Part shown: positions 9,881 to 43,150 of the stretch, in pieces | Numbering within the stretch: position 1 is the stretch's first letter | Layout: each line of letters begins with the position of its first letter | DNA from: Microvirga aerophila | Lineage (GTDB): Bacteria; Pseudomonadota; Alphaproteobacteria; Rhizobiales; Beijerinckiaceae | NCBI RefSeq assembly: GCF_003332305.1 | Contig: NZ_QOIO01000001.1 | Location: forward strand, 62,001-126,000 | Reading direction: 5' to 3' | Length of the DNA: 64,000 nt | The notes under the pieces: model-generated | Told to the model about the DNA's origin: nothing | What the model saw: the letters and a program-made list of their open reading frames with translations, nothing else | The model's database searches: none | Translations under genes and position numbers: made by a program

Positions 9881-9911
9881 GATTCCCGGAGCGGCAAGAA
9901 TCAATTCAATC

Positions 9912-11157
9912 TCACGCAAGCTCAGGCTGAAGCAGTGGATACAAGCAGGTCTGTTGGGCAAAGTCCGCTGCCGGAGCGGTCAACTGCGCCAGCTCCGGCC
10001 CAGACAGGGCGTTGCGCCAGGCGCGGCGGGCCAGGGGACTTTCCACCTTCAGACGAACAGCGTGGTGTCGCGATCCTCAAGCCGCGAGCGTGCGTCGGTA
10101 TAGGCAGCATTCGGGCGCTTCTCGATGGCAGCGAGAAGGGTGTTACAGTCCACGGGACGATCAGGGTGCGCCAACGGTCTATTGTCTGCGGTTTCGCAAA
10201 AAACATCGCAGTCCCGTGCCGGACCGAGCGCAGAGGCGATCCGCTTTGCCTCTTCCCGCAGGAGATCGAAGTCCGAGCAGCGCAGAGCTCGCTTGAACGT
10301 CGCCAGCGCCGCCCGCATGCGACACAGGGCAACCCGCATGTGATGGATGGTACTCGGATTCTCTGCTTCCCTGATCGCGGCCCAGTTGGCTACGAAATGC
10401 AGCAGCGTGTTTGAGAGCACCGCCTGCACCGCGGCATCAAGTGTTGCCCCTGATGCGAACTGGATCGGGGTGGCTTTGACGGCGGCGGATGTCGCTCGAG
10501 ACATGGCTTGGAAGCCGTGCTCGGCTTTGCTGACAAAGTCGAGCCGCAGTGCCAGTTCGTCAGCAAGGCTGATCGCTAGGTCGTACAAAGCGGGCTCATC
10601 GCCCGATTTCAGCACCAGTTCGATTTCAGTCAGCGGCACTCTCTGATTGGCGACGACATTGATCCCGTCGTCAAAAGCCACTTCGATCTAGGACCGGCCT
10701 CGCTCGACCAGGATCGTCCGTCGATGATAGTCGTCTCGAACTGCGCTGCGAGAGGGCGATCCCCAACAAGAGCGCTCAGCTCGATCGCCGTGGCCTCGTC
10801 GAACAGCGACAGGTCTGGCTGCATGTCTGGCATATGGACCTCGACTTCCTTGCGGGGCAACAGATCATCATAAGCTTGAGCCACTTTGACGCCAAGGATC
10901 GGCTTCGCCCGCCCCGTTCTGCGGATGCGGAGAACGATCCCGTTCTTGCGCAGATCTCCCGATGCGGTGTCGAAATAGGCCGAGCACACAGTCTCGGTGC
11001 AGGGCGCTGACACCACGGCCAGAACCTGCGACGCCTGTGCTCGCATGAGACCGTCGCGATCCGTTCTGAACTTGATCTCGATGTCCTGACGACCGGAATT
11101 CGCTGTGGGTGTCTCGACGATCGGCACGCTTGGGATCGCGCTTGCAGGCTTGATCAT
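9912..11157 (-). pseudogene. Decayed CYTH-CHAD protein gene
   Basis: Starts at ATG 11157 (MIKPAS). The N-terminal CYTH part (IEIKFRTD, ExExK-like; YFDTASGDLRKNGIVLRIRR) is in frame to about 10730. A missing base near 10724-10730 is needed to join QFETTI to HRRTILVERGRS. In that second frame a TAG (10688-10690) comes before IEVAFDDG and VPLTEIELVLKSGDE. The CHAD half carries the polyphosphate-binding helix IHHMRVALCRMRAALATFK. A third break at about 10050 shifts LFV into LKVESPLARRAWRNALSGPE, which ends at 9912, so the last third of CHAD is missing. The intact paralogue is at 11832. Several independent lesions make this a pseudogene rather than a sequencing slip. Confidence 0.85.
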
Positions 11158-11257
11158 GCAACCATTCCGGTATCGACGGTGGTGCATCCTAATCAAATCG
11201 GAAGAAGGGATCAGACCAGTCTCTCCGTTTATTCATCCTTAAGATCGAGCGCGCAGC

Positions 11258-11275
11258 CTGTCGTCTGACTGTTAC
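11258..11275 (+). promoter_or_regulatory. Candidate PhoB box before first Nudix gene
   Basis: CTGTCGT-CTGA-CTGTTAC matches the two 7-base half-sites of the PhoB consensus (CTGTCAT-N4-CTGTCAT) at 11 of 14 positions and ends 21 bases before the Nudix start. Moderate match; location is the main support. Confidence 0.45.
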
Positions 11276-11296
11276 AGATGCGGGGTATGTGGTCCC

Positions 11297-11791
11297 ATGC
11301 TCGCCCGGAAACGAAAGCTGCGTCAGGTCGGTGCGCTCCCGCTGCTCGTCAATGCGGATGGCGGGGTCGAAGTGTTTCTCGTGACCGCACGAGGCAGCGG
11401 GCGCTGGATCATTCCCAAGGGCAATCTCATTCCCGGTCTCGCTCCGCATGAAGCGGCCACCCAAGAAGCCCGAGAAGAAGCCGGCCTGATCGGCTTGGCC
11501 GAGTCCCATTGCATCGGGACGTTCGAGTTCAGCCGTCGCCGCCGCGGCCGCGACACGACCTGCCTCGTGGATGTCGACCTGCTCATGGTCAAGCTTCAGA
11601 TGCGCAAATGGGCCGAGGCGGCCCAGCGTTCGGTGCTTCGGTGCAACGTGGAGACGGCGCTGTCGCTGGTGGGATCCTCAAGCCTTGCGTTCCTGATTGA
11701 GCAGCATCTATCGCCGCAAGTTCAGTCAGGGCGTTTGGGACCGTCGGACCAGGCGAGCGTTTCGCAGTGGTCCTACGCTGGACAGCCGTGA
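11297..11791 (+). CDS. Nudix hydrolase, diphosphoinositol-polyphosphate-phosphohydrolase-like (copy 1)
   Basis: A 164-residue Nudix protein. WIIPKGNLIPGL followed by HEAATQEAREEAGLIG is the Nudix region; the metal-binding EE of REUxEExGU is present, but Arg is replaced by Gln (QEAREEAG). Family members of this type cut inositol pyrophosphates, diadenosine polyphosphates or polyphosphate. Divergent from the decayed CYTH-CHAD gene, exactly as copy 2 is divergent from the intact one, which indicates a duplicated gene pair. A candidate PhoB box precedes it. The residues after about 130 (VGSSSLAFLIEQHL) match copy 2 only loosely. Confidence 0.85.
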   Translation: MLARKRKLRQVGALPLLVNADGGVEVFLVTARGSGRWIIPKGNLIPGLAPHEAATQEAREEAGLIGLAESHCIGTFEFSRRRRGRDTTCLVDVDLLMVKLQMRKWAEAAQRSVLRCNVETALSLVGSSSLAFLIEQHLSPQVQSGRLGPSDQASVSQWSYAGQP

Positions 11792-11831
11792 CCTGCCCTC
11801 GTCCAGATCAACAGCTCAGTGGGGAAGACCG

Positions 11832-13367
11832 TCAAGCGCGCCAGAAGGGTTCGAGTGATGCAAGCGTCTGATACTGCGCCTTCGCATCAGCCAGTAAGCC
11901 GTCGATCCTGGATAGCTGCTCCTGATGGATCGTGTCGGCGGCCGGCGAAGCCTCCATCTGGGAGCCCACGGCAATGTCGTTGAGCTCTCCGAGGGTCTCC
12001 TGGACGGCTTCAAGCGTGCTCAAGGCGGCCCGTTTCCTCTTCTTGGCGCCACCTCCTTTGAACAGGCTCTCGAAGAACTCCGTCGCATAGCGAAGCTTCT
12101 TGATCGCGATCCGCACCTGGTGGCGTTCTTCCGAGTCCAGATCCACAAGGTTCCTTCCCTGCTTGATGATCTTCTTCCAGCGTCGGCCGAGTTCCTCCTC
12201 GGCTAGCATCGTGATCGGTTGGCTACGCCGCTTACGAGAAGGTTTGCTCTCATCGAGGAGCCACCCCCCGGCCTGGATCCATGCAGCTGTCTCCAAAACT
12301 CCGTTGATGAAGCGGGCTGAAGCAACGGTCTCCTGAACCACCTCGTAGGCGCGGTCACGTCGTTCCTGGTAGTCAGCCAGGAGATCCTGATAGCCTTGGT
12401 CGCTGCTGTGCTCGTCCCGTGCTGGCTCAAGGACCTTGGTGATGTAGACATCCAAGTCGCGTGCCTCCCCCAGTACATTGGCCATCCACTTGAGCTCGGC
12501 CCCAATCGCGTCCCGCCGCTCGTCCTCAACAACGCTCTTGAACAGGGTGATGGCGGCCCGAAGCCGCCGCAGGGCAACCCGCATTTGGTGGACAGCATCA
12601 GCCTCGGGCGCGCGCCGGACAATGGCCTCATTGGCCATCAGATGCTGCAGGCAGGACGCACCGACACGCTGAAACGCGGCGGCGCTCGTCATCTTGCGCT
12701 TGAGGACCACAGGAGGTGCTTTGACGCGTGCCGGCTGTTCGTCAGTGACCGCCTCGAAGCCGCGCTCGGCCTTGGTCTTGAAGCTCAGGCGCAGGGGCGT
12801 TGCCGTTGAGAGTGCCAGAGCGAGCTGAAACAGGTCTGCCGGAGCGCCATCCTTGAGCTCGAGTTCAACCTCAGAGAAGGAGACTGTTCGTTCGTTCCCC
12901 TCAACCTTGCTGTTGTCGGCAGCAAGCTCAATAAGCGAGTTCTCAAAGGTGACGTTGTGTAGGGTTCGCGCGGTGGTCACACGGAAGACGGGCTGGATCG
13001 AGGCGCTTGGCTTCAGGAATGGTTTGAGGGCGGTATCCTCCACAAGAGCGTAATTTGGGCTGTCGCCATTGACCTCGTGTTCCCACTCGTTCCGAGCCAG
13101 GGCGACACCATCGGGTGGACGAGCGGCTTTGATCGTCTGGATGTACTGGTCGCCATTGCGCCTGACCCGCAGCGAGATCCCGGCCTGCTGTAGCGCGTGA
13201 TCCGGTGTATCATAGTAGGTCGCGTGGAGGGTCTGCTTTTGGGAGCCATCCGCTCGTTCGCACAGGAGCGGATGAGCCAACACCTTCTCAAGCTCAGCAG
13301 GCGCGACCTCCAGCTTCAGCTCGATTTCCTGGGGAGGGCTGGGCTTAGCTGGCATGGGGCGCCTCAA
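11832..13367 (-). CDS. CYTH and CHAD domain protein (polyphosphate/triphosphate)
   Basis: A 511-residue protein. The N-terminal CYTH triphosphate-tunnel domain (about 14-205) opens with EIELKLEV, the ExExK metal/phosphate motif, and holds TYYDTPDHALQQAGISLRVR. The CHAD domain (about 235-505) has VHQMRVALRRLRAAITLFKS and, farther on, HQVRIAIKKLRYATEFFE, the two His/Arg/Lys-rich helices that bind polyphosphate. Known CYTH-CHAD proteins hydrolyse tripolyphosphate or bind polyphosphate granules. The start is TTG 13367 (AAGGA at 6 bases) or ATG 13355 (GAGG at 6 bases); both look usable. Divergent from Nudix copy 2. Confidence 0.92.
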   Translation of the reverse strand: MRRPMPAKPSPPQEIELKLEVAPAELEKVLAHPLLCERADGSQKQTLHATYYDTPDHALQQAGISLRVRRNGDQYIQTIKAARPPDGVALARNEWEHEVNGDSPNYALVEDTALKPFLKPSASIQPVFRVTTARTLHNVTFENSLIELAADNSKVEGNERTVSFSEVELELKDGAPADLFQLALALSTATPLRLSFKTKAERGFEAVTDEQPARVKAPPVVLKRKMTSAAAFQRVGASCLQHLMANEAIVRRAPEADAVHQMRVALRRLRAAITLFKSVVEDERRDAIGAELKWMANVLGEARDLDVYITKVLEPARDEHSSDQGYQDLLADYQERRDRAYEVVQETVASARFINGVLETAAWIQAGGWLLDESKPSRKRRSQPITMLAEEELGRRWKKIIKQGRNLVDLDSEERHQVRIAIKKLRYATEFFESLFKGGGAKKRKRAALSTLEAVQETLGELNDIAVGSQMEASPAADTIHQEQLSRIDGLLADAKAQYQTLASLEPFWRA

Positions 13368-13435: not shown

Positions 13436-13945
13436 ATGTTCTTGCAGAGAGTCATTCGTCGTGTGCTCAAACCGTACCAGCAGTTTGGAGCTCTGCCGTT
13501 CACGTGGAGTTCCAGTGGCTCTCTGAAAGTAATGCTCGTGACGACACGCGGTCGCAAGCGCTGGATGATCCCGAAGGGCTGGCCCATCCCTGGGCTTGAG
13601 CCGCACGAGAGTGCAGCGCGTGAGGCCTTCGAAGAAGCCGGTTTAGTTGGATATGTGGATCCAAAAGCCGTAGGGTCATTCCGGTACGACAAGCGCCTGG
13701 GTCCTGGACGGCAGGTCAGGTGCACTGTGGAGGTCTTCCCGTTCCACGTGGACCATCAGAGGCCCCACTGGCTCGAGAAGGGGGAGCGGGAGACGCGGTG
13801 GTTGAGCACTAAGAAAGCAGCCAGCCTGGTTTCCCAGCCGGAGCTAAAGAGGATAATCCTTAGCTTTAACCCGAACCGCCATTCCTCGGACGAGGCGCAG
13901 AACAGGTCCTTGAACGCAGGTCCGGATCATGGGACCGGTAGCTGA
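13436..13945 (+). CDS. Nudix hydrolase, diphosphoinositol-polyphosphate-phosphohydrolase-like (copy 2)
   Basis: A 169-residue Nudix protein with the core WMIPKGWPIPGL and then HESAAREAFEEAGLVG, containing the intact REUxEExGU. This subfamily, often labelled NUDIX/DIPP in rhizobia, is thought to act on inositol pyrophosphates or polyphosphate. The start ATG 13436 follows GGGAG. It pairs divergently with the CYTH-CHAD gene across 68 bases, in the same arrangement as the worn pair at 9.9-11.8 kb; the pairing suggests a shared polyphosphate-linked role. Confidence 0.9.
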   Translation: MFLQRVIRRVLKPYQQFGALPFTWSSSGSLKVMLVTTRGRKRWMIPKGWPIPGLEPHESAAREAFEEAGLVGYVDPKAVGSFRYDKRLGPGRQVRCTVEVFPFHVDHQRPHWLEKGERETRWLSTKKAASLVSQPELKRIILSFNPNRHSSDEAQNRSLNAGPDHGTGS

Positions 13946-13948: not shown

Positions 13949-14239
13949 TCAAACCTCTCGCCCTAGTGCTCTACTTATTCTGGTCCAACTCGCGTTTGCC
14001 GAGCGCTCTGGGGTGGAGCCCCGAACGGCCTTGCCACGGCCCGACAAACTCGGATTGGTCATGAAATACTTATGAGCATTGAACGGTTCCTCGCCCTTGG
14101 CGGGAACGATTATCACCCGCAGGGATGCTGACGAGTGCTCCGCGGTGACGCGCCCCAAGAGTATTTCATCGCCGAATTCAGGGTCGGCATGCCGCTCAAT
14201 GGATTCGATCAACTACAGGTCGATAATGATTGGCCGCAT
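13949..14239 (-). pseudogene. Unknown small gene with an in-frame TAG at codon 9
   Basis: ATG 14239 has a very good ribosome site (GGAGG, 6-base spacing) and begins MRPIIIDL, then TAG at 14213-14215, then 87 open codons ([20 protein letters not shown]...). I do not recognise the family; the part up to FNAHKYF looks coding, while the tail (after about codon 68) looks less so. A strong PhoB box lies about 125 bases upstream on the same strand. Either a recent nonsense mutation (CAG to TAG would restore Gln) or translation that resumes downstream. Confidence 0.5.
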
Positions 14240-14362: not shown

Positions 14363-14384
14363 TTTGATGACACTTTGATGACAG
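14363..14384 (-). promoter_or_regulatory. Strong candidate PhoB box
   Basis: On the minus strand CTGTCAT-CAAA-GTGTCAT-CAAA: 13 of 14 half-site positions match, with both A-rich spacers. It points to the small gene at 14239. At equal base composition a match this good is expected far less than once in the window. Confidence 0.75.
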
Positions 14385-14839: not shown

Positions 14840-15223
14840 TCAGGCTCGCTCCTCTTCAGTCCGAGCCTTACGCCGCTTCTTTTTCTTATTCTTATCAGTG
14901 CCATCCGGCAAAAGGGAGCTTGCTACGGCTGTCACGGCATGGCCGAGAGTACCAGCAAGATTTCCGGCCATGTCGGCAGTGGCAGATGCTGCTCGGCCGC
15001 CAGCGTCTGCAACAGCCTCTCCGGCTCCAGCGACCTGCTCGGATGACGGCGCGATCTTGCGGGTCAAAACAGTTGCAGCGGCTCCTGCTGCTGCGATCAG
15101 AGCATCAGCCAGCAAGCGGCGGGCCGTATCATTTTGCAGAATGGCGTTAACAAGGTCCGAGTGGCGTACGGCCTTAGGCAACTTCACGCCAGCCACTGAT
15201 TTGGGAACTTTGGTCTTTGCCAT
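14840..15223 (-). CDS. Alanine-rich protein of unknown function with Lys/Arg tail
   Basis: A 127-residue protein: a basic start (MAKTKVPKSVAGVKLPKAVR), then Ala/Gly-rich stretches (ADALIAAAGAAATVL; AVADAGGRAASATADMAGNL) that could form amphipathic helices, and a highly charged tail with a run of lysines and arginines (DKNKKKKRRKAR). No signal peptide. The tail could bind polyphosphate, DNA or membranes; this is speculation. A PhoB-like box ends 26 bases before the start. It sits between the CYTH-CHAD/Nudix pairs and another CYTH gene. Confidence 0.7.
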   Translation of the reverse strand: MAKTKVPKSVAGVKLPKAVRHSDLVNAILQNDTARRLLADALIAAAGAAATVLTRKIAPSSEQVAGAGEAVADAGGRAASATADMAGNLAGTLGHAVTAVASSLLPDGTDKNKKKKRRKARTEEERA

Positions 15224-15248: not shown

Positions 15249-15266
15249 ATAACAATTTGATGACAG
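15249..15266 (-). promoter_or_regulatory. Candidate PhoB box before the Ala/Lys-rich gene
   Basis: Minus strand CTGTCAT-CAAA-TTGTTAT, 12 of 14 positions, 26 bases upstream of ATG 15223. It shares the CTGTCATCAAA core with the box at 14363. Confidence 0.65.
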
Positions 15267-15328: not shown

Positions 15329-15826
15329 TCAAGTGGACTGCTTTAAGTCATTCGAATGTTCGGGCGCCTTGGAGTGGTGCGCGAAGATGTTGGCTTTCTT
15401 GTACTGGGGATCGCCAGTTACCTCAGGGCCGATCCACTCGGGTCGCGCGAAGACCTGATCTTCGTGCTCCAACTCCACTTCAGCAAGGATGAGGCCCTCC
15501 AATAGCCCCTCGTGAACGTCAATCTGCCAGGTCACATCACCATGAGGAACTAGGTAGCGGGTCTTCTCCACCAGCGGGCCGTCACAGAGCGTCGCGAGCA
15601 TATCAGTTGCCTCGGAAAGTGGGACTTCATACTCGAACTCTGCCCTACCAAGCCCCTTGCGTGGTCCTTTCACAGTCAGTGACGCCGTCTCACCTGCGAT
15701 CCGGACGCGGACTTTACTCTCGCCGAACCGTGCGATGAGGCCGTCTAGCATCCTCTCGCTGTACGTCACCGCGTTCCTCCAACGGTCATCGGCGACAAGG
15801 AATTTTCTCTCGATCTCCAAGCCCAT
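15329..15826 (-). CDS. CYTH domain protein (inorganic triphosphatase-like)
   Basis: Single-domain CYTH protein of 165 residues; start placed at ATG 15826 because MGLEIERKFLV, with the ExExK signature at its very start, is the canonical N-terminus of bacterial class IV adenylate cyclase/triphosphatase CYTH proteins. Further motifs: KVRVRI, LTVKGPRKG, EFEYEVP, IDVHEGLLEGLILAEVELE. Relatives hydrolyse tripolyphosphate or thiamine triphosphate. Third CYTH copy within 6 kb. No clear ribosome site precedes 15826. Confidence 0.88.
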   Translation of the reverse strand: MGLEIERKFLVADDRWRNAVTYSERMLDGLIARFGESKVRVRIAGETASLTVKGPRKGLGRAEFEYEVPLSEATDMLATLCDGPLVEKTRYLVPHGDVTWQIDVHEGLLEGLILAEVELEHEDQVFARPEWIGPEVTGDPQYKKANIFAHHSKAPEHSNDLKQST

Positions 15827-15956
15827 GAAGCTGCCATCAATGGATCTGCTCCCGCTAGATAGCCGCCTCACGCTAGGCGAGCAAATGTTGTTATGCCTGT
15901 CAGTCTCACTCTATGTCGATGCTGTCTGGAGGATCGGCGAGTAACTTCGTCTCACG

Positions 15957-16702: not shown

Positions 16703-17200
16703 TCTGACATTCTCCAGTCCACTCGAGGCCAACGCAGAATAGCCGATTTTGTGCGCCGCACAATTGTCGCAGGAGCCCAAACCTTAGAAGTGACGAAGCG
16801 TGATCGCTTCGTCATGGACCGGATCTATGTCCCGCTGCGGGGGATTGAGGTGAGTTAGTACCGATGTACTGCGGCCCACCGGCTCCCTCTGGCGACGATG
16901 CCATAACAAGCAAAATGGAACCTGACGATCACCTCACCGCATGCCCGCGTTGGTTCCCGATCTTCCTAGTGGGGATCGGCTGCATCAGCTTGGCTGTTTG
17001 TTAGGGCTGACATAGCGAAGTTCCCGCCCTGTGAGCTGCGACCTTCTCTCCTCAGGCCCCTAAACCGTAATGCTAGCACCATGCAGGTGCTAGGGTAGCA
17101 ACAATCGGGTGCCGCGTGTCATGTGGATGTCATGGAGCTCGGTCTAGCGTCTACGTAAGCTACCCAGGCGTGTTGTGTTTCCATCATCAGGATGCCCGAT
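16703..17200. other. Intergenic stretch with one hairpin
   Basis: No convincing gene. At 17073-17093 there is a perfect 8-bp inverted repeat, CTAGCACC and GGTGCTAG, around ATGCA. It could be a protein-binding site or a small transcript end; nothing links it to a gene. Confidence 0.4.
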
Positions 17201-17359
17201 ATGAGCATTGGGATTTTGCTTCTGATCGGCTGCGTCTTTCTGTTCACGGTAGCTCTCCCGGCTTGGCCTTATAGCCGGGACTGGGACCCCCTGCTGAGTA
17301 CTCGTTTCGGTCTCCTTACCTTGATAATCTTTCTGCTACTTATGACAGGCCGCCTCTGA
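17201..17359 (+). CDS. DUF3309-like small membrane protein
   Basis: A 52-residue frame. MSIGILLLIGCVFLFTVALP, then WPYSRDW, then GLLTLIIFLLLMTGRL: two membrane segments around an (A/T)WPYSR.W motif, the hallmark of DUF3309 proteins, which are common in rhizobia. Function unknown. ATG 17201 with a weak AGGA upstream. Confidence 0.7.
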   Translation: MSIGILLLIGCVFLFTVALPAWPYSRDWDPLLSTRFGLLTLIIFLLLMTGRL

Positions 17360-17577: not shown

Positions 17578-17595
17578 CTGTCATCCAAGTGTCAC
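17578..17595 (+). promoter_or_regulatory. Candidate PhoB box before phytase-like esterase gene
   Basis: CTGTCAT-CCAA-GTGTCAC, 12 of 14 positions, 67 bases before ATG 17663. Confidence 0.65.
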
Positions 17596-17662
17596 TCACA
17601 TGTCGCCCTGGCGACACGCACCTTGTCCAGAAGGATCCTGCTCAATCCTCAGAAGGACGAAC

Positions 17663-28266: not shown

Positions 28267-28277
28267 GGCTCTCGGGC

Positions 28278-29824: not shown

Positions 29825-29847
29825 GGCTCTATGTTCATTGACGGGGA

Positions 29848-29873: not shown

Positions 29874-29885
29874 CTTTGAGTGGGC

Positions 29886-30875: not shown

Positions 30876-30903
30876 TCCAAAATCTCCGCTTATATTTCTA
30901 GTT

Positions 30904-31743: not shown

Positions 31744-31748
31744 CTACA

Positions 31749-33187: not shown

Positions 33188-33188
33188 C

Positions 33189-33965: not shown

Positions 33966-34867
33966 TCTGCGGCCTCCCAACCGGCTTTTGCGGTGCAATG
34001 CTGTGGCAAGCCTGCTCCCTGACACCCCTCAGACCGGCGTGTTTCGCAATGGTCGGTGTCGGAGCAAACAAACATACGACCGCCGCGGTCGTCCGTGATG
34101 ACCTCGTCCATATAGACGTCCTGCGCATCACAAAGCGCACAACGGCAATCGAAGCGCTGGACCGTGAATGGGTGGTCCTCAAAGTCGAGACTGACCACAT
34201 CGGTGAAGGGCGGCAGCGCGTAGATCCTTTTCTCGCGGCCGGCGCCAAAAAGCTGCAGCGCGGGCGAGTGGTGCATCTTGGGGTTATCGAATTTGGGGAT
34301 CGGCGACGGGTCCATGACATACCGGCCTTCGACCTTTACGGGATAAGCATAGGTCGTGGCGATATGGCCGTGCTGCGCAATGTCCTCGTAGAGCTTTACA
34401 TGCACCAAGCCATACTCCTCCAACGCATGCATCACGCGCGTTTCCGTTTCACGCGGCTCAAGGAAGCGAAGCGGCTCAGGAATTGGCACCTGATAGACAA
34501 TGATCTGGCCGTGAGCGAGAGGCGTCTCGGGAATGCGGTGTCGGGTTTGGATGATCGTTGCATCCTCCGTTCGTGTCGTCGTTGCAACATCCGCAACTTT
34601 GGCGAAGAAGGCCCGGATCGACACCGCATTGGTGGTATCATCGGCACCCTGATCGATGACCTTGAGCACATCGTCCGGACCCAGGATCGATGCAGTGACC
34701 TGCACTCCGCCCGTGCCCCAGCCATAAGGCATCGGCATGTCACGTGAGGCGAACGGCACCTGGTAGCCGGGGACCGCGATCGCCTTCAGGATCGCACGCC
34801 GGATCATCCGCTTGGTCTGTTCGTCGAGATAGGCAAAGTTATAAGCAGGCAGGGATGGATTGGTCAC
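33962..34867 (-). CDS. phnJ: C-P lyase, radical-SAM subunit PhnJ
   Basis: 301 residues. Cleaves the C-P bond of ribose 1-alkylphosphonate 5-phosphate. Cluster cysteines appear at 243, 246 and 268 and the catalytic Cys at 274 (CALC, FVCSDTDHC), a +2 offset from the E. coli residues 241/244/266/272, plus DDRGGRMFVCSD. Start overlaps the phnI stop. Confidence 0.97.
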   Translation of the reverse strand: MTNPSLPAYNFAYLDEQTKRMIRRAILKAIAVPGYQVPFASRDMPMPYGWGTGGVQVTASILGPDDVLKVIDQGADDTTNAVSIRAFFAKVADVATTTRTEDATIIQTRHRIPETPLAHGQIIVYQVPIPEPLRFLEPRETETRVMHALEEYGLVHVKLYEDIAQHGHIATTYAYPVKVEGRYVMDPSPIPKFDNPKMHHSPALQLFGAGREKRIYALPPFTDVVSLDFEDHPFTVQRFDCRCALCDAQDVYMDEVITDDRGGRMFVCSDTDHCETRRSEGCQGAGLPQHCTAKAGWEAAE

Positions 34868-35964
34868 TCTGCTGCCTCGCTCATTGGTGTGTCAGCACTC
34901 GCCATTGCGGCCTCGCGGCGTAATGTTCGCAACAAATCGAGCTCTGCCTGGAAATCGACATAGTGCGGTAGCTTCAGGTGCTCGACGAAGCCAGTGGCCT
35001 GCACATTGTCGCAGTGCTCCAGCACGAATTCCTCATCTTGCGCCGGAGCCAGGCGTTGCTCATTGAACTCATCAGCTCTCATTGCGCGGTCAACGAGACT
35101 CATGGCCATCGCCTTGCGCTCGGATTGTCCGAAGATCAGCCCATAACCACGTGTGAAACGCGGCGGCGAATCCCCACTTCCCTTAAACTGCGACACCATC
35201 TGGCATTCAGTGACCCGGATCGCGCCGATGCACACGGCAAAGCCGACTTCCGGCACCTCCACTTCGACATCAACCATGCCGATCCGGATCTCACCGACGA
35301 AGGGGTGTGTTCGACCGTAGCCGCGCTGCGTCGAATAGCCGAGGGCGAGCAGGAAGCCCTCGTCGCCGCGCGTCAACGCCTGCAAGCGGATTTCGCGTCC
35401 AACGGGATAGGCAATCGCCTCACGCGTCAGGTCACCCGGTTCATCGTTGCTTGGGACATCAGCCTCGATCAGTCCTTGGCTATCAAGAAGATCAGTCACG
35501 CGCGGGCAGCTCTCATCCGTGGGGCGCTCCCGCTTGACAGGGTGTGCGACAGCTTCGTCACCCGCCATGGAAGGGTCGATCAGGCGGTGCGTGTAGTCGA
35601 AAGTCGGCCCCAGCAGCTGGCCGCCCGGGATGTCCTTGAAGGTCGCCGAGACACGGCGCTCAATGCGCATCCTGTTCGTGTCGATAGGGCGCGCGTTGCT
35701 GAACCGCGGCAGCGTGGTCCGATAAGCACGCAGGAGGAAGATTGCTTCAATCAGATCGCCGCGTGCTTGGCGCACGGCCATTGCCGCGAGTTCCGGGTCG
35801 TATAGGGAGCCCTCCGCCATCACGCGATCAACACCAAGGGATAATTGGTTGACGATCTGCTCGACGGAGAGCGCCGGCACATTGCGATCTCCACGCCGGC
35901 GATTGGCCATGAGACGATGTGCATTGGAGATCGCCGTCTCTCCACCTTTAACCGCGACATACAT
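34864..35964 (-). CDS. phnI: C-P lyase core subunit PhnI
   Basis: 366 residues. Nucleosidase component that, with PhnGHL, swaps adenine for phosphonate on ATP. Family text visible: MYVAVKGGETAISNAHRLM, PELAAMAVRQARGDLIEAIF, LLRAYRTTLPR, YGLIFGQSERKAMAMSLVDR. Four-base overlap with phnJ. Confidence 0.97.
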   Translation of the reverse strand: MYVAVKGGETAISNAHRLMANRRRGDRNVPALSVEQIVNQLSLGVDRVMAEGSLYDPELAAMAVRQARGDLIEAIFLLRAYRTTLPRFSNARPIDTNRMRIERRVSATFKDIPGGQLLGPTFDYTHRLIDPSMAGDEAVAHPVKRERPTDESCPRVTDLLDSQGLIEADVPSNDEPGDLTREAIAYPVGREIRLQALTRGDEGFLLALGYSTQRGYGRTHPFVGEIRIGMVDVEVEVPEVGFAVCIGAIRVTECQMVSQFKGSGDSPPRFTRGYGLIFGQSERKAMAMSLVDRAMRADEFNEQRLAPAQDEEFVLEHCDNVQATGFVEHLKLPHYVDFQAELDLLRTLRREAAMASADTPMSEAAE

Positions 35965-35967
35965 GGT

Positions 35968-36564
35968 TCAGGCCTCCACAAGACGGGCGGTGCGCGGCAG
36001 TGCGAGAAGTTCGCTGGCGCAGATCAACAGCAGGTCGAAGCCCAGCGGAAAGCGAGCAGTATTGGTCGCCATTGTCTCGGTGAAATCATCCGGTAGCCTG
36101 CATGGCGCGATAGTGGCAATGGTCTCGATCCCAGGGCCACGCAGGGTCAGCGGCGTGCCGTCTCGTAGGCTTTCCACCGGTAAAAGCAGCGTCGCGGATC
36201 GGTCGGGATAGGAGAGAGAGCCCATTGCGAAGTTTCGCCAACCACTGACTGGGCTATTCTTGGACAGAACCGCAAAGCTCGCCGTCCAAGGGTCTTTGGT
36301 GACTGCGGCTCCCGTATGGAATGTCAGCCACGATGCGGCTGTGTCTGTGCCATTGTCTTCAAACCAGACTGGAGTGTCATAATCGGCGAGCGTTGCTAGG
36401 AAGGCCGCCGCTGCAGGCTCAAGCGGCGCAGGCGCTTGGACCGGGTTGCCCAGATCCACGATACGGCCCGGCTGAGCCACCGCGTCCATCACCAGCCGGA
36501 ATATGGCCTGCGATTGAAAGACGGGAGCTGTGAACCCGCCGTCCAACAGGGTTGTACCAGTCAT
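35968..36564 (-). CDS. phnH: C-P lyase core subunit PhnH
   Basis: 198 residues from ATG 36564, which overlaps the phnG stop by one base; the longer frame to 36696 runs inside phnG. LLDGGFTAPVFQSQAIFRLV and DAVAQPGRIVDLG are typical. Structural subunit of the PhnGHIJ core. Confidence 0.95.
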   Translation of the reverse strand: MTGTTLLDGGFTAPVFQSQAIFRLVMDAVAQPGRIVDLGNPVQAPAPLEPAAAAFLATLADYDTPVWFEDNGTDTAASWLTFHTGAAVTKDPWTASFAVLSKNSPVSGWRNFAMGSLSYPDRSATLLLPVESLRDGTPLTLRGPGIETIATIAPCRLPDDFTETMATNTARFPLGFDLLLICASELLALPRTARLVEA

Positions 36565-37028
36565 CAGTCTTCTCCCCGAACCATGGCGAAGAAGTCGACA
36601 CGCGTGGCCTCCGTCTCTTCGGCCTGCCGTATCCGCGCTGCGTCTTGCTCCGCCAGCGCTGGCGTCACGAAATCGGTTTCGATCACCTGGACCCAATCCG
36701 GAAGTTGGGAGAGCGCATCGAGATGCGCGACGATGGTTGCCTTCTGCAGGTGGCGGCCGAGAACAATCGCGTGACCGACCTCACCTGTTGCGAGCTTCAC
36801 AGTGGCTCGGGTCACCGTGGCCTCGCCAAGATTGAAGGGCGCGCCACCGCCGCCGGCCCGGCCACGAAGCATGACCATGCCGATTTCGGGACCACGGATG
36901 GGGGTTGCAGTAGGGACGGCATGCTCCAGCGCAGCATATCGCTCGGCTAGATTAGTCGGGTCACCGGAGGCCAAGGCGTCAAGCCTCCGCTTTCGGGCTT
37001 CATCGGGAGAGTGCATTCGATAACTCAC
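36564..37028 (-). CDS. phnG: C-P lyase core subunit PhnG
   Basis: 154 residues (GTG 37028; ATG 37016 is an alternative with a weak GTGAG site). RLDALASGDPTNLAER, GMVMLRGRAGGGGAPFNLGE (glycine-rich phosphate loop) and GHAIVLGRHLQKA are family marks. First gene of a 13-gene operon running to 26556 with gaps of at most 61 bases. Confidence 0.95.
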   Translation of the reverse strand: MSYRMHSPDEARKRRLDALASGDPTNLAERYAALEHAVPTATPIRGPEIGMVMLRGRAGGGGAPFNLGEATVTRATVKLATGEVGHAIVLGRHLQKATIVAHLDALSQLPDWVQVIETDFVTPALAEQDAARIRQAEETEATRVDFFAMVRGED

Positions 37029-37079: not shown

Positions 37080-37097
37080 GTGACAACCTGATGACGT
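37080..37097 (-). promoter_or_regulatory. Candidate PhoB box of the phn operon
   Basis: Minus strand ACGTCAT-CAGG-TTGTCAC, 10 of 14 positions, 51 bases before phnG. Weak by score, but C-P lyase operons are classic PhoB targets and the position is right. Confidence 0.5.
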
Positions 37098-37110: not shown

Positions 37111-37839
37111 GTGTCGATGAGCCCAGAGGGAGATGGCGTCACGCGCTGGCGGCGGGTGGCAGACGACATCCGCAGCAATATCGGTGACGGCATCATTTCT
37201 GATGCTCTGCCGTCAGAGCTCGAATTGGCAGCGCGTTATGGTGTCAATCGCCATACGGTCCGTCGTGCCATCGCGGCCTTGACGGCAGATGGGTTGCTGC
37301 GCGTGGAGCGTGGGCGCGGCACCTTCGTGAACAGCAAGCCACAGCGGATCGTCTATCCTATCGGCTCACGTACACGCTTTTCCGAAAACATGTTGAAGCA
37401 ATCGCTGGAGCCCTCAGGCCGGCTCATCAAGTCCGACTTCGTCTTGTCCGATTTGGTGATGGCTACCTTGCTTGGATGCCGCGTCGGCACACGACTTCAC
37501 CGTCTCGACAGCCTCTCGGTCGCCGATGGCATTCCATTGTCGCGTTCGACATCGTACTTTTCGGCTGAGCGGTTTCCGGGAATCATTGACGCCTATGCCG
37601 AAACCGGCTCAATCACCGAAGCGTTACGGCGCGAAGGAGTTGTCGACTATCGCCGCCGGGAAACCCGACTGACGGCAGAGCGCATTTCCGCTAAAGACGC
37701 CGAGCTGATGAGCTGCGCAGCTGATGCCGTCGTCCTGATCAGCAAGGCGATCGATGTGGACCTCGAAGGGCAGCCGGTGCAGTTCATCAGAACAAAGTTT
37801 CTGGCGGATCGGGTGGAACTAGTAATGCTCCAGAACTGA
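37111..37839 (+). CDS. phnF: GntR/HutC-family regulator of phosphonate genes
   Basis: 242 residues. N-terminal winged helix (RWRRVADDIRSNIGDGIISD, then LPSELELAARYGVNRHTVRR), C-terminal UTRA ligand domain (about 95-240). Divergent from phnG; the palindrome at 37037 is its likely operator. GTG start 37111? The reading begins MSMSPEGDG-like; a second Met three codons in (ATG 37117) is the only ATG and has GGCAG upstream, so the exact start is uncertain by two codons. Confidence 0.92.
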   Translation: MSMSPEGDGVTRWRRVADDIRSNIGDGIISDALPSELELAARYGVNRHTVRRAIAALTADGLLRVERGRGTFVNSKPQRIVYPIGSRTRFSENMLKQSLEPSGRLIKSDFVLSDLVMATLLGCRVGTRLHRLDSLSVADGIPLSRSTSYFSAERFPGIIDAYAETGSITEALRREGVVDYRRRETRLTAERISAKDAELMSCAADAVVLISKAIDVDLEGQPVQFIRTKFLADRVELVMLQN

Positions 37840-38289: not shown

Positions 38290-40473
38290 TCAGAGCTTGC
38301 CGAGTTTGAGGAACTGCGTTTCGCCGGATGAGCCGTCGACGCCATCGTTGTCTGTGACGACATAAGCGTCGCCTGCCGCGTCGATGGCAAAGCCCTCGAC
38401 CTTGTCGAGCACATAGCCCTTCGCAGCCTTCAGGTCGGGCAGGAGATCGCGAATAACCGTCTTCTTCACGAGAGGCATTTCACGACCAAGCTCTGCGGGC
38501 TTCATGTCGGCCATGGAAACCGCATAGAGCTTCTTTACCTTCGCCTTCTCGGCGATCTGATTGTCGCGTTCGATAATGATGACGCGATCGCCCGCAGCGC
38601 TGATCTCGGAGAGGCCGATCCAGCCGGCATCGACTTTGTCGAGCGGGTAATGCACCGCGCCCCAACTCTTGTCCGCAGGCTTATAGGCGAGGAGTTTCAC
38701 TGCGCCCTTGCTGTCATCCGCCCATTCGCGCTGCACGGCAAGCCACACAACCTCATCCGCGCCCGATCCAGTGACGGTCACGCCCTCGAGACCGGAGTTC
38801 GTTGCGCCCGTCTCGAGATCCGCGGGAAGCGAAATCTCTTCCTGGATTGCGCCCTTCGCGTCGACCTTGAGGAGCAGGTTTCTCAGACCCTTCTCCGGGT
38901 TTCCCTCGGAGGCGACCCAGAAGCCGCCATCAGGGGCCATGGCGATGCCTTCGAGATCGAGCTTCTCGGCGGCAGACCCGTTGCGGGTCACGAGCGCTTC
39001 GCCGGTGATGCGCGCGGGCTTCTGCGTGGCGTCGATGGTGAGGATGCGCGGAGCGCCGTTGTAGACGCTGTCCGTGACCGCATGGAGTTGGCCGGGCTGG
39101 GACCTGTCGGCGGCGAGGCCGGAGAGCGCGCCCCAGGCGATGGGAAGGCCTTCGGCGTTCCTCTCCGACCGGATCGTCGGATAGGCCGGAGCGGCGCGGT
39201 CGGCACGCTGATAGATCATGACATGGGGCGCAGCACCGCCATCGCCATGCAGATCGTCCTCGCTCGTTGCGACGAGGAGATTGCGGCTGGGGATGGCGAC
39301 GAGGCCCTCCGGTGCGATGCCTGCCGGCAGAACCTGCGCGAGTTCCGGCACTGCGCCAGCATCCCGATAGACTCCGATGACGGATGCGCGCTCGGAAGCC
39401 ACGAAGATGAGATTGTCATTGCCGAAACGCGCCGCCTCGATGCCTTCGATCTCAGCGCCCTTCTTGTTGCGCTTGTCTGGATAATGCCCAAGCGCGACGA
39501 TTTCGTGCTCGAGGCTTGCACCGGATTCGTAGGCGACGGAGCCATCCCTATTGAAGATTGTAAAGCCCCGCGAGCCGCCTTTCCAGTCGCCTTCATTGGC
39601 GGTCACGAAGCGGTTTGCGTCGATCCAGTGGACTGCATCGGGCTCACGGAGGGCGCCATTCTGCGAGCCGGTCAGCTCGATCTTTCCGTCCTTCTTGGTG
39701 TCGATGTTCTTCAGATCGGTCTGGCCTGCGGAGAAATGTGCCTCGACCTTGCCGGTTTTTCCATCGACCACAGCGATGTGGTTGTTCTCCTGCAGGGTGA
39801 CGACGACATCGCCCTCAGAGGAGATGTCCACGAACTCGGGCTCCGGGTCCTCGCCAGCGACAGAAGCGAGGCCGGTAAGGTCGACGTTCTTGAGACTGGC
39901 GCAATCGACATCGCCGCTGTTGAGCGGCGCAATCATGAGCGATCCTGGGGGCAGTTGCGGGAGCGCGCCTTCGTTCACGTCCTCGTCGCGCTCGTTCTCG
40001 ATGGCGATGGCCAGGATGCCGGCATTGGATGCAACAGAATCCGGCTGACCGGGCAGCGCGCATTCTGAGGTGATTCTGCGGTTGGCGAGATCGACCAGAA
40101 CCAGCTTACCCGAGGGCTTGATGTAGTTCTCAGAGGTGTTGACGGCGACCAAGGCGTTGCCGCCTACGACCTTGACGGACGTGGGCTCGCCGCCAAGCGC
40201 CAGAATGCTGGAGGCCTTGGGCGCAGCCGGATCCGCGATGTCGATGAAGCCCAGCGCCTTGCGCGGGCTGTCCGTATAGACCAGTAGCTTGCCGTCCTCG
40301 CTGGCTGAGATGATCTCGGCGACAGTCTCGCCTTTCTGGTCCGCATCGGCCGGAAGATTGGTTGTGATGGGAAAGCTGGCGATGCGGTCGAAATATTCCG
40401 CCGCAGAGGCGGTCAGCGCAGTGCCGGAGAGAAAAAGGGCGGCAAGCGAGCCGAGAGTGAGAGAACGGTGCAT
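38290..40473 (-). CDS. Secreted beta-propeller phosphoesterase-like protein with phytase-esterase domain
   Basis: 727 residues with signal peptide (cleavage near ASA-AEY). N-terminal propeller (about 25-430; SEDGKLLVYTDSPRKALGFI, EPDAVHWIDANRFVTANEGD, IEGIEAARFGNDNLIFVASE) of the kind found in alkaline-phosphatase-like secreted proteins; C-terminal 'esterase-like activity of phytase' domain (about 440-727; LDLEGIAMAPDGGFWVASEG, NSGLEGVTVTGSG, IIIERDNQIAEKAKVKKLYA). Substrate not known; periplasmic phosphate release is the likely role given a 13/14 PhoB box upstream. Its last 60 residues have a stray copy at 23820. Confidence 0.88.
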   Translation of the reverse strand: MHRSLTLGSLAALFLSGTALTASAAEYFDRIASFPITTNLPADADQKGETVAEIISASEDGKLLVYTDSPRKALGFIDIADPAAPKASSILALGGEPTSVKVVGGNALVAVNTSENYIKPSGKLVLVDLANRRITSECALPGQPDSVASNAGILAIAIENERDEDVNEGALPQLPPGSLMIAPLNSGDVDCASLKNVDLTGLASVAGEDPEPEFVDISSEGDVVVTLQENNHIAVVDGKTGKVEAHFSAGQTDLKNIDTKKDGKIELTGSQNGALREPDAVHWIDANRFVTANEGDWKGGSRGFTIFNRDGSVAYESGASLEHEIVALGHYPDKRNKKGAEIEGIEAARFGNDNLIFVASERASVIGVYRDAGAVPELAQVLPAGIAPEGLVAIPSRNLLVATSEDDLHGDGGAAPHVMIYQRADRAAPAYPTIRSERNAEGLPIAWGALSGLAADRSQPGQLHAVTDSVYNGAPRILTIDATQKPARITGEALVTRNGSAAEKLDLEGIAMAPDGGFWVASEGNPEKGLRNLLLKVDAKGAIQEEISLPADLETGATNSGLEGVTVTGSGADEVVWLAVQREWADDSKGAVKLLAYKPADKSWGAVHYPLDKVDAGWIGLSEISAAGDRVIIIERDNQIAEKAKVKKLYAVSMADMKPAELGREMPLVKKTVIRDLLPDLKAAKGYVLDKVEGFAIDAAGDAYVVTDNDGVDGSSGETQFLKLGKL

Positions 40474-40524: not shown

Positions 40525-40542
40525 ATGACGGCCGCATGACAG
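40525..40542 (-). promoter_or_regulatory. Strong candidate PhoB box before the large esterase gene
   Basis: Minus strand CTGTCAT-GCGG-CCGTCAT, 13 of 14 positions, 52 bases before ATG 40473. Confidence 0.75.
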
Positions 40543-40729
40543 TCGCAGTGCAAGAACAGGCCAAACGCAGAACGTTTTCAAAAGAGCCGCTTCGGGTCAA
40601 ACTCGGAAACCCCAACCTCTTCCAGAACGTCCGCTCTGGCATGACAAGCTGACCAAAGACACAACCGAGTAGGCTCGTGTGCAAAGCTCGTGCGTTGTCG
40701 CATCAGCACCCGCCCACCCAGGAGCCCTC

Positions 40730-41839
40730 GTGTCGGACACCAGCCTTGCAGAAGCCATCGCCCAGGTTCCCCTTACCTTTTCCGATTGGAAGCCGCTCCG
40801 GCACTTAGAGGACCCGCTCCATAAGGACCTCTCGGCTGTCACGCGGATCGGCGACTGCCTCTTTCTCGCCTGCGACGAGACCGCAAGCGTCGAGCGCCTC
40901 CAGCACTTGGACGACGGCAGCTTTGGGCATCACCAGCATTTCGCCTTGGATGCGCTGGTCGACTTGCCTGCCGGTGCCGACGGCGAGATGGACATCGAGG
41001 GCCTGTGTGCCGATGAAGGCTTCCTCTGGATCGTTGGGTCTCACTCGCGCAAGCGCTCCAAGCCCAAGCGGGATGAGAACGACCGCTCTGAGGCCCTCCA
41101 GAACATGGAGGAGATCGAACGCGAGCCCAACCGCTACTTTCTCGGGCGCATTCCTCTTGTGGAGGAGGCACCGGGGATCTTCACCCCCACCCGATCCGAC
41201 GGGGAACGCCAGTCGGCTTGGCTCAAGCTCGGTAAGAAGCGGAGCGCTCTTGAACGGTGGCTTTCAGAGGATCCGCACCTCGGACCGTTCCTGAACATCC
41301 CGTCAAAGGAGAACGGCTTCGATGTCGAAGGACTAGCCGTGAAAGGAGATCGGGTCTGGCTTGGTCTACGCGGGCCTGTGCTGCGCGGGCACGCTGTAGT
41401 TCTCGATCTGGAGCTGACGCAGAAGGGCCAAGACCGGCTGAAGGCGCGCCGGATCGATGGGGAGCGCCGCTATCGCAAGCATCTGCTCGATACCCGAGGT
41501 CTGGGGATCCGTGACATGCAGTTTGCGGGCGATGATCTTCTTCTGCTGGTAGGGCCGACCATGTCTCTGGAAGGGCCGGCCTTTGTCCTGCGGTGGCGCG
41601 GCGCGGCGCATGATGACAGCTCCGGCGTCATTGCTCCTGAGCGTATCGAGACAGTGGCTGAACTGCCCTACCAGCTGCATGTGGATCACCCGGAAGGGCT
41701 TGAGCTCTGGCCTGAGGCAGGCGATGGCAGCCTGCTGATTATCTACGACGCCCCTGCCCCAGAACGAACCGACCCTGACACGTTCACGGTGCGCGCTGAC
41801 GTAATTTGCCCAAGGCAAGCCGAAGATGGCCGGAGTTGA
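40730..41839 (+). CDS. DUF3616 domain protein
   Basis: 369 residues from GTG 40730, chosen because AGGAG lies 6 bases upstream; the frame reaches GTG 40679 without a ribosome site. Family marks: HKDLSAVTRIGDCLFLACDE, EMDIEGLCADEGFLWIVGSH, DVEGLAVKGDRVWLGLRGPV, LRGHAVVLDLEL. A propeller-like protein with no signal peptide. Function unknown; divergent from the Pho-box esterase. Confidence 0.85.
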   Translation: MSDTSLAEAIAQVPLTFSDWKPLRHLEDPLHKDLSAVTRIGDCLFLACDETASVERLQHLDDGSFGHHQHFALDALVDLPAGADGEMDIEGLCADEGFLWIVGSHSRKRSKPKRDENDRSEALQNMEEIEREPNRYFLGRIPLVEEAPGIFTPTRSDGERQSAWLKLGKKRSALERWLSEDPHLGPFLNIPSKENGFDVEGLAVKGDRVWLGLRGPVLRGHAVVLDLELTQKGQDRLKARRIDGERRYRKHLLDTRGLGIRDMQFAGDDLLLLVGPTMSLEGPAFVLRWRGAAHDDSSGVIAPERIETVAELPYQLHVDHPEGLELWPEAGDGSLLIIYDAPAPERTDPDTFTVRADVICPRQAEDGRS

Positions 41840-41917
41840 ACGCAGCGTATGGCTACCTATTGGCGATCGGGGAGAAAACGACTCAAGGGGCAGATGCCGG
41901 TAGCCCTTTGGAATTGT

Positions 41918-41964
41918 TGGTCAGAGCACTCGGACTCGAACCTAGGATCCTCTGATCAAAAGTC
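41918..41964 (-). tRNA. tRNA-like 3'-half fragment
   Basis: On the minus strand this reads from an anticodon-loop-like GACTTTTGATC through CTAGGTTCGAGTCCGAG (T arm, one mismatch) to TGCTCTGACCA. The 5' half is absent: the sequence upstream cannot pair as acceptor or D arm. It has the same length (47 bases) and break point as the tRNA-Lys fragment at 43371, so it looks like a scar of integration into a tRNA gene. The original tRNA identity is unclear. Confidence 0.5.
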
Positions 41965-42026
41965 TGAATGTCTTTGGCCCTGATACTGGGGTGGATGGCG
42001 TCTTTGTCCCGAGCAGCAATGGTCGC

Positions 42027-42044
42027 CTGTCACAACCTAGCCAT
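42027..42044 (+). promoter_or_regulatory. Possible PhoB box before phoD-like gene
   Basis: CTGTCAC-AACC-TAGCCAT, 10 of 14 positions, 38 bases before ATG 42083. Weak second half. Confidence 0.35.
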
Positions 42045-42082
42045 TCGGCGCAGAGAAACTCTGCTGGGTGGAGGGAGCCGAT

Positions 42083-43150
42083 ATGCCGCTTCTCATTCTC
42101 GCCATCCTATTCGGCTTGCTGGTGCCTGCACGCCTTCTTGCTCAGGATGTGCCATCCCTTCTGCTGCGGATCGCTTTCGGATCCTGTGCCGACGAGGAGA
42201 AGCCGCAGCCGATCTGGGATGCCATCCTAGCTTACCAGCCCCAGCTCTTCCTGTTCGCCGGGGACAACGTCTATGGCGACGTGCGCCAGGGGCGCAATGT
42301 GCCGGATGCGGAGCTCCTCCAAAGCCTCCAGGAGTCGTATGCCCAGGCTGGCCGGGTGCCAGGCATGGCGCGGCTCAGAAGCACCATCCCGTATCTCGCC
42401 ACCTGGGATGACCATGACTACGGCAAGAACGATGCAGGTGCCGACTTCGCTGGCCGCCACGAAGCCCAGCGGCTGTTCCTGCAGTTCTGGAACGTGCCGC
42501 TAACGGATGCGCGTCACCGGCGGGAGGGCGTCTACCACAGTCAGACCTTCGGCCCTGACGGGCAGCGGGTGCAAGTGATCCTGCTCGACACCCGCTTCTT
42601 CCGCTCCTCCCTCAAGCCCACGGACCAGCGCAATGCCGCCGGTCGCGAGCGTTATCTGCCGGACGACGATCCGAGCAAGACGATGCTGGGCGAGGCGCAG
42701 TGGTCCTGGCTGGCTGAGCGGCTTCGCGAACCCGCCGATTTGCGCCTCATCGTGTCGTCCATTCAGGTTGTGGCGGAGGGGCATGGCTGGGAGCGCTGGG
42801 GCAACCTTCCCCGCGAGCGGCAGCGCCTCTATGACCTCATTCGGGCAACCGCCGCAGGTGGTGTGATCCTTCTTTCAGGGGATCGCCACGTCGGCGGTCT
42901 GTACGGCGAAGCGACGGACGTATCCTACCCCCTCGTCGAGATCACCTCGAGCGGCATCAACCAAGTCTTCCCGGGCAACCGGGAAGCCGGGCCCAACCGG
43001 CTCGGCGCGGTCTATGGTGCCCCGAACTTCGGCACAATCGACGTGGATTGGTGGGAGCGGACTGTCACTCTCTCCTTGCGGAGCGAGAATGGCGAACCCG
43101 TGCGCCGGCAGGTCGTGCGCTTGGACGAGCTGAGGGTCTCGGGTCCATAG
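42083..43150 (+). CDS. PhoD-like alkaline phosphatase/phosphodiesterase
   Basis: 355 residues from ATG 42083 (GGAGGGAG upstream) with a signal peptide (MPLLILAILFGLLVPARLLA, then Q). Metal and active-site motifs: IAFGSCADE, LFLFAGDNVYGD, ATWDDHDYGKNDAG, ILLDTRFFRSS, ILLSGDRHVGGLYGE. It belongs to the PhoD superfamily (single-domain, shorter than B. subtilis PhoD) and should hydrolyse phosphoesters outside the cytoplasm. Lies between two tRNA fragments, so it may have arrived with an element. Ends with TAG. Confidence 0.9.
   Translation: MPLLILAILFGLLVPARLLAQDVPSLLLRIAFGSCADEEKPQPIWDAILAYQPQLFLFAGDNVYGDVRQGRNVPDAELLQSLQESYAQAGRVPGMARLRSTIPYLATWDDHDYGKNDAGADFAGRHEAQRLFLQFWNVPLTDARHRREGVYHSQTFGPDGQRVQVILLDTRFFRSSLKPTDQRNAAGRERYLPDDDPSKTMLGEAQWSWLAERLREPADLRLIVSSIQVVAEGHGWERWGNLPRERQRLYDLIRATAAGGVILLSGDRHVGGLYGEATDVSYPLVEITSSGINQVFPGNREAGPNRLGAVYGAPNFGTIDVDWWERTVTLSLRSENGEPVRRQVVRLDELRVSGP

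Follow-up and report, generated by a model that had tools for sequence, protein, structure and literature searches.

A probable PhoB-controlled phosphorus-scavenging island in Microvirga aerophila, apparently brought together from loci that lie mostly apart in related genomes

The Pho regulon of alphaproteobacteria and enterobacteria is characterised by a PhoB box of 11-bp repeats and by a carbon-phosphorus (C-P) lyase operon accompanied by PhnF. HIMB59 marine alphaproteobacteria are described, in the sections of the source used here, as carrying flexible phosphate-related genomic islands that include polyphosphate genes (PMC10734472), and clusters joining PlcP to a glycosyltransferase for lipid remodelling are described as bearing Pho boxes (PMC4796936, likewise in part). 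A phytase-family protein of the cyanobacterium Nodularia, an "atypical alkaline phosphatase", is strongly induced by phosphate limitation, the main text on that enzyme not containing the words "pho box" (PMC9846622), and a phytase-family gene is merely listed in the portion of PMC9777792 used here. The present analysis concerns a 64,000-nt stretch of the genome of Microvirga aerophila (contig NZ_QOIO01000001.1, positions 62,001 to 126,000), here called the window, which was chosen beforehand for its phosphorus genes and represents 1.07% of a genome whose 184 contigs total 6,003,377 bases. We conclude that the phosphorus genes gathered in it most probably constitute an accessory, rearranging, PhoB-controlled phosphorus-scavenging island, assembled from loci that lie mostly apart in relatives and partly decayed.

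With the general Pho regulon the locus shares boxes of 11-bp repeats and a phn operon, and the same genome carries a tandem box before a PstS-like gene; unlike that regulon, it appears to count two phytase-like genes, a DUF3309 gene and a gene for a 127-amino-acid (aa) protein among its members. As in the HIMB59 islands, genes for acquiring and storing phosphorus are gathered in variable sets, polyphosphate genes included. HIMB59 is described as also having a separate phosphonate island. The Microvirga island itself includes C-P lyase, phytase-like and glycerophosphodiester phosphodiesterase (GDPD) genes; the HIMB59 islands occupy one genome position and all hold pst-phoU, whereas the Microvirga clusters lie in differing surroundings and phoU is found on other contigs (PMC10734472, sections used). 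On these features, the Microvirga island may best be read as a soil counterpart of the marine alphaproteobacterial phosphate islands. The Nodularia protein shares its named family with the Microvirga phytase-like proteins (PMC9846622, main text).

Candidate boxes (Table 1) were scored as matches over the 14 half-site positions of the pattern CTGTCAT-N4-CTGTCAT, and gene families were assigned with Pfam and NCBIfam models. The window contains five sites with at most two mismatches, whereas 100 shuffles gave 0.28 on average and never more than 2. With at most three mismatches, 13 sites were found, some of them intragenic (35076, 48066, 57809), against a shuffle mean of 4.56, and again none of the 100 shuffles reached the observed number. 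Genome-wide, 29 sites have at most two mismatches versus five for a reversed control pattern, and five of these 29 fall in the window (binomial P ~1e-5, a value to be read with the prior choice of the window for its phosphorus genes). The genome holds four one-mismatch sites, namely two in the window, one in a tandem box on contig C98 and one on contig C120, the last with no called gene start close behind it. Four of the five window sites with at most two mismatches stand at most 130 bases before a gene, if phytase-like gene 1 is taken to start at 17663; outside the window, 7 of 24 (five places, two of them tandem) stand within that distance of a same-strand called gene, and two of the genes behind these read as PhoX-like and UgpB-like. 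As a positive control, the tandem box on C98 stands 52 and 41 bases ahead of a gene whose N-terminus reads as PstS-like, about 4 kb before phoU and about 5 kb before the gene of a Trans_reg_C (OmpR-type) regulator. Of a PhoB/PhoR-Pst-PhoU system, phoU and the OmpR-type regulator are present on C98, with Pst recognised by reading only, and the matches to the PhoU domain are on C98 and C46, outside the window's contig.

Within the window, oriented CTGTCAT-like repeats at 11-bp spacing precede phytase-like genes 1 and 2, the GDPD gene, phnG, the DUF3309 gene and the 127-aa gene, and appear weakly before the transporter gene and phoD. An earlier note on this DNA had named the phosphorus families, and Pfam bears it out with CYTH, CHAD, two Nudix, two PF13449, GDPD, GT4-metallophosphoesterase, Phn and PhoD matches. 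Its eight boxes were recovered with their scores (13/14 twice, 12/14 twice, 11/14 once and 10/14 three times), the one placed at 14363 starting at 14367 on the minus strand, and its chance figures agree with our count of 39 sites of exactly 10/14. The statement that all eight stand near gene starts fails for 14367, which has no gene start nearby, and two further boxes, at 17116 and 19263, had been overlooked.

The boxes are kept before orthologues of several of these genes. Searches of the genus covered 48 genomes, and the counts given here take in the window's own copy; in a background set of 545 other upstream regions, 44 reach 10/14 and 16 reach 11/14. For phytase-like gene 2, all of the best 30 loci (35 genomes have a match) score at least 11/14, with a range of 11 to 14 and a mean of 12.4 versus 8.2 in shuffles, and 29 of the 30 boxes lie at -61 to -72. 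Both GTCAT cores are near-invariant in the alignment amid a variable spacer and variable flanks, so this conservation is not mere kinship. Phytase-like gene 1 shows at least 10/14 in 18 of 21 loci and at least 11/14 in nine; in most of the 21, several repeats of 11 bp stand close to -91, -80 and -69. For the GDPD gene the corresponding numbers are 17 and 10 of 22 loci, three broken pieces (G016, G017) being excluded; the window and G012 have their best site at -83 and -88, the other loci at -55 to -60. Of four loci given for the DUF3309 gene, three hold it, with sites of 12, 12 and 10 of 14 between -82 and -85, and phnG has a box of at least 10/14 at -69, the same place throughout, in seven of seven loci (a count without the more distant copies in five genomes). 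Since the boxes persist before orthologues while the surrounding bases vary, several of the box-bearing promoters are probably true PhoB targets.

For the phn operon, a different reading of the conserved site has to be weighed. Box 37080 might be a PhnF operator, or simply reflect general promoter conservation, in which case phosphonate use would lie outside the PhoB regulon here; its score of only 10/14, its closeness to phnF and the high conservation of the spacer in which it lies (mean column identity 0.86) are what such a reading would draw on. The seven aligned sequences nonetheless keep CGTCAT and TGTCAC invariant at an 11-bp spacing, and elsewhere among bacteria C-P lyase is a classical target of PhoB, both of which speak for PhoB, and we consider an explanation by PhnF or by general conservation improbable.

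The arrangement of the genes was followed in 76 mapped regions, 10 of them from the same genome. The phn operon, plcP-GT4, both phytase-like genes, the transporter and CYTH-CHAD lie mostly apart in the relatives, and a conserved unit was rejected, as no other genome among these regions has the same arrangement. The phn locus is syntenic in L082-L086 and L106 with no other island gene within 19-20 kb, except that L106 shows weak generic transporter and oxidoreductase matches; another phn copy, in G012, lies 7 kb from a GDPD gene. Smaller associations are kept: GT4 adjoins plcP in 28 of 29 relatives' loci mapped, plcP itself being present in 47 of the 48 genomes (copies among the matches listed are 68-78% identical to that of the window), and the fused permease follows the binding protein in all 29 loci mapped for it in relatives. 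The proposal of a single regulon cluster joining lipid remodelling, polyphosphate handling and phosphonate use is borne out in part. Several promoters are probably PhoB targets, as proposed, whereas the gene order is not conserved and the genes do not form one conserved cluster. The links to polyphosphate and lipids would run through CYTH-CHAD and PlcP-GT4, neither of which has a box in the window, and a link to polyphosphate comes instead from a decayed polyphosphate kinase stub behind box 14367. The earlier note was thus right on the boxes, largely right on regulation and wrong on one conserved cluster.

The grouping could also be due to chance, the phosphorus genes being merely neighbours whose ordinary PhoB sites travelled with each gene, without any island unit; most relatives examined have these genes and their boxes at separate places, and this order occurs in no other genome mapped. 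Clustering was tested with nine families, pairs at most 10 kb apart and 47 other genomes, against random placement. We found 12 to 15 such pairs, in seven of the 47 genomes, where 1.58, 1.71 or 3.11 were expected, depending on the weak matches admitted. Counted by genome, the seven correspond to P values from 0.001 to 0.04, the latter, with all weak matches admitted, being the figure most favourable to chance. Yet small clusters of the same families do recur in these genomes, and some adjoin further phosphorus or lipid genes (ppk1, olsB, inositol-1-phosphate synthase), which makes chance grouping a rather unlikely account. The G016 cluster holds plcP, Nudix, CYTH-CHAD, a broken GDPD gene and the 127-aa gene, and that of G045 holds DUF3309, PhoD, CYTH and phytase-like 1. 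In G047 the ornithine-lipid synthase gene olsB is grouped with a hydrolase, PhoD, DUF3309, the 127-aa gene and DUF3616, and in G032, an assembly flagged as 18% contaminated, PhoD, polyphosphate kinase 1, a plcP piece and olsB are found together; two of the seven clustered genomes have the cluster beside ornithine-lipid synthase. Contig C2 of G032 (1.4 Mb; L027, L029-L036) also contains nine phnJ matches, and may represent a mixed assembly or a phosphonate-rich replicon.

Signs of decay are present in the window, including a split CYTH/CHAD gene, a 70-residue piece of phytase-like gene 2 and a 35-residue stub of polyphosphate kinase 1 (PPK1). The GC content at third codon positions (GC3) of the window copies falls below the orthologue mean for eight of eight genes and below every orthologue examined for four of them (phytase-like 2, the binding protein, PlcP and PhnJ), and the island mean is 0.68 versus 0.76-0.84 in five other stretches of the genome. 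The three remnants, the low GC3 and a stranded strong box would also suit a decaying leftover, that is, an island being lost and not assembled. The remaining genes, however, are open over their full length, and phytase-like 1 and 2, PlcP and GDPD are the only full copies in the genome at the thresholds used, so that a mere leftover seems unlikely. The strong box in question, 14367, is on the same strand as the PPK1 stub, with a gap of 256 bases, and behind it on its own strand there is no called gene for 999 bases. Because it points at the stub, it may have belonged to the promoter of a Pho-controlled kinase gene that has since been lost, leaving the box stranded; such a link is plausible given that the intact PPK1 gene of G032 has an 11/14 site on the kinase strand about 400 bases before its called start. 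Two other candidates for this place were rejected. A known regulatory RNA found no Rfam match in the window, and the region matches the C-terminus of polyphosphate kinase; for a gene at 14480-14745, the frame tried (one base off the intended start) holds stops, and the only similarity is a partial one to G047 at the DNA level.

Several observations weigh against an assembled island under PhoB control. Orthologues are mutually related, so the conservation counts are not independent. For the 127-aa gene, only four of 15 scorable loci reach 11/14 (15 of 30 have no usable match); its nearest relative, in G047, scores 10, the second nearest, in G016, scores 8 and thus has no box, the next five (L142-L146) score 7 to 9, and the more distant G012, G040 and G009 score 11-12. 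No locus of 30 reaches 11 before the transporter gene, the best site lying at -60 to -74 with a score of 8-10 in 26 of them, and only one of nine does so before phoD, the site position being kept in six of nine; these two sites are weak but in place. CYTH-CHAD has no conserved site, with a best score of 8/14 within 400 bp upstream in the window and none of 11 loci reaching 11. Like the clusters of PMC4796936, in the part of that source used here, the window's PlcP is immediately followed by the glycosyltransferase; unlike them, it has no box of at least 11/14 within 400 bp upstream. The same range before plcP in 20 relatives' loci gave nothing of at least 11/14, and 19 core copies share a conserved but degenerate three-repeat element (best pair 8-10/14); sites of 12/14 stand 430-460 bases ahead of plcP in G016 and of the broken plcP in G032. 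At the level of the island, clustering counted by genome is modest, and the G009 and G021 clusters may be one shared event. The GC3 of the flanks is also low (0.72 and 0.685), so a larger accessory stretch is possible. No tRNA was found as an integration target, and the repeats found over positions 8000-52000 do not flank the island and include no att-like pair, so that transfer by the integrase at 43577 is no more than possible. That integrase follows PhoD after 426 bases. The segment 43577-48760 comprises the tyrosine integrase followed by a DUF3987 and primase-polymerase protein, with direct and inverted repeats of the type GGCACAATTGGCACA around it, and is perhaps the replication module of a mobile element.

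We infer the following scheme for the PhoB-controlled island. When phosphate is low, PhoB would bind the 11-bp-spaced repeats and switch on the DUF3309 gene, phytase-like genes 1 and 2, the GDPD gene and the phn operon; the 127-aa gene would likely respond as well, and the ABC transporter and PhoD might do so. The phytase-like proteins, PhoD and GDPD would then release phosphate outside the cytoplasm, C-P lyase would break phosphonates, and PlcP with GT4 would replace phospholipids, expressed perhaps by read-through from phn; the 615-bp gap between phnN and plcP holds no terminator-like site on the minus strand. A broader and more tentative proposal, which we regard as possible though doubtful, is a pool of small cassettes under PhoB control, shared among Microvirga genomes (PhoD with DUF3309, phytase-like, GDPD, CYTH or CYTH-CHAD, polyphosphate kinase, PlcP, ornithine-lipid synthase and the 127-aa family) that would be repeatedly gathered, reshuffled and lost. 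Most of the set would have been drawn into this 33-kb island, where several genes have the sole full copy of the genome; the 127-aa and DUF3309 proteins would be new members of the Pho regulon, and the former would perhaps bind polyphosphate through its basic tail.

Concerning the individual genes, the region 10049..11196 is a degraded second CYTH-CHAD copy, part of which matches CYTH-CHAD at 38% with an internal stop. The intact CYTH-CHAD protein has eight relatives in named records, the six nearest from Microvirga (66-82% protein identity) and two from Salinarimonas (42-43%). The PPK1 stub alone gives no Pfam match. The 127-aa protein has no family in Pfam or NCBIfam and belongs to a larger Microvirga family of Ala-rich, basic-tailed proteins (L142-L168) with a match in 48 of 48 genomes; a Pho role for the whole family was rejected, given this ubiquity and the 11 of 15 scored loci below 11/14. 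A short conserved stretch with a small hydrophobic open reading frame (ORF), at 16924-17016, lies 5' of the DUF3309 gene, and is also found near DUF3309 in G047 (L229) and G045 (L279) at 78-82% DNA identity. Signal peptides, on our reading, make 17663 a more likely start than 17525 for phytase-like 1, and 42083 more likely than 42068 for PhoD. A second PhoD copy (G000, contig C110:12074-13153, L255) is 91% identical to that of the window and has an 11/14 box. Searches for solved structures by sequence gave nothing up to E 1 for phytase-like 2, and for phytase-like 1 no more than two marginal matches, both to the proteasome (E 0.076 and 0.47). The transporter at 20948-23640 was rejected as a 2-aminoethylphosphonate importer (PhnS2/PhnU2), its scores lying far under the NCBIfam equivalog cut-offs (158.3 bits against 392.75 and 117.8 against 593.25), and no ATPase gene of its own was seen adjoining it in the window.

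At 24058..25940 a metallophosphoesterase adjoins a glycosyltransferase, as in PlcP-type lipid remodelling; the PlcP protein matches no PlcP-specific model, and its NCBIfam matches are LpxH-like and below cut-off. The window holds the components of a C-P lyase operon, i.e., phnGHIJ, KL, M, N and a PhnF-type regulator. Pfam models support PhnG, PhnH, PhnJ, PhnD, a PhnE-type permease, a PhnC-type ATPase and the GntR/UTRA regulator. PhnK and PhnL match as ABC ATPases and PhnM as an amidohydrolase, PhnN is weak, and the Pfam matches of PhnM and PhnN are general ones; PhnI was assigned by place and conservation only, and PhnM and PhnN partly by place.

Table 1. Candidate PhoB boxes and genes of the island (window coordinates).
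Feature	Position	Strand	Basis or remark
Candidate PhoB box 11/14, before Nudix gene 11297	11258..11275	+	
PhoB box 13/14, facing PPK1 stub	14367..14384	-	one of the genome's four one-mismatch sites
PhoB box 12/14, begins 43 bp before 127-aa gene	15249..15266	-	
PhoB box 12/14, before DUF3309 gene	17116..17133	+	absent from earlier list
PhoB box 12/14, three 11-bp repeats, before phytase-like gene 1	17578..17606	+	
PhoB box 11/14, before GDPD gene	19263..19280	+	absent from earlier list
Weak box 10/14, begins 65 bp before binding-protein gene	23688..23705	-	
PhoB box 10/14, between phnG and phnF	37080..37097	-	
PhoB box 13/14, before phytase-like gene 2	40525..40542	-	
Weak box 10/14, before phoD	42027..42044	+	
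CYTH piece and CHAD piece, two overlapping frames	10049..11196	-	Pfam CYTH 6.3e-7, CHAD 1.6e-22 in two ORFs
Nudix hydrolase	11297..11791	+	PF00293 5.6e-8
CYTH-CHAD protein	11832..13367	-	Pfam
Nudix hydrolase, divergent from CYTH-CHAD	13436..13945	+	Pfam; same pairing in some relatives
PPK1 C-terminal stub	14006..14110	-	80% over 35 aa to residues 744-778 of 784-aa PPK1 (G032, L280)
127-aa protein, Ala-rich, Lys/Arg-rich tail	14840..15223	-	ORF
Stand-alone CYTH protein	15329..15871	-	PF01928 1.7e-11
DUF3309 small membrane protein	17201..17359	+	PF11752 1.4e-10 for ORF from 17192
Phytase-like secreted protein 1	17663..19009	+	PF13449 1.1e-56 for longer ORF from 17525
GDPD	19346..20494	+	PF03009 3.2e-44
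Fused ABC permease, distant relative of PhnU2	20948..22663	-	below NCBIfam cut-off
Substrate-binding protein, distant relative of PhnS2	22660..23640	-	below NCBIfam cut-off
Remnant, 3' end of a second phytase-like gene 2	23822..24032	-	64% over 70 aa; 73% DNA identity over 172 bases
GT4 glycosyltransferase	24058..25086	-	Pfam
PlcP-type metallophosphoesterase	25086..25940	-	Pfam; sole match in own genome
C-P lyase operon: phnGHIJK, ABC ATPase (PhnL position), hexapeptide protein, phnCDE, DUF1045, phnM, phnN	26556..37028	-	
PhnF regulator	37111..37839	+	TIGR02325 256.9 bits, cut-off 156.8
Phytase-like protein 2, 727 aa, two parts	38290..40473	-	PF13449 7.2e-61
DUF3616 protein	40679..41839	+	PF12275 1.7e-111
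PhoD-like phosphatase	42083..43150	+	PF09423 1.4e-21 for ORF from 42068
Tyrosine integrase, right edge	43577..44740	+	PF00589 2.6e-13, PF13356 1.8e-15

Existing knowledge of PhoB is unchanged by the island. What a soil genus gains is a concrete and testable set of phosphate-starvation genes, including two phytase-like proteins without a convincing solved relative by sequence, and the uncharacterised DUF3309 and 127-aa families become testable as Pho genes. In Microvirga, adaptation to low phosphate may travel as small packets of genes, in the way described for marine alphaproteobacteria.

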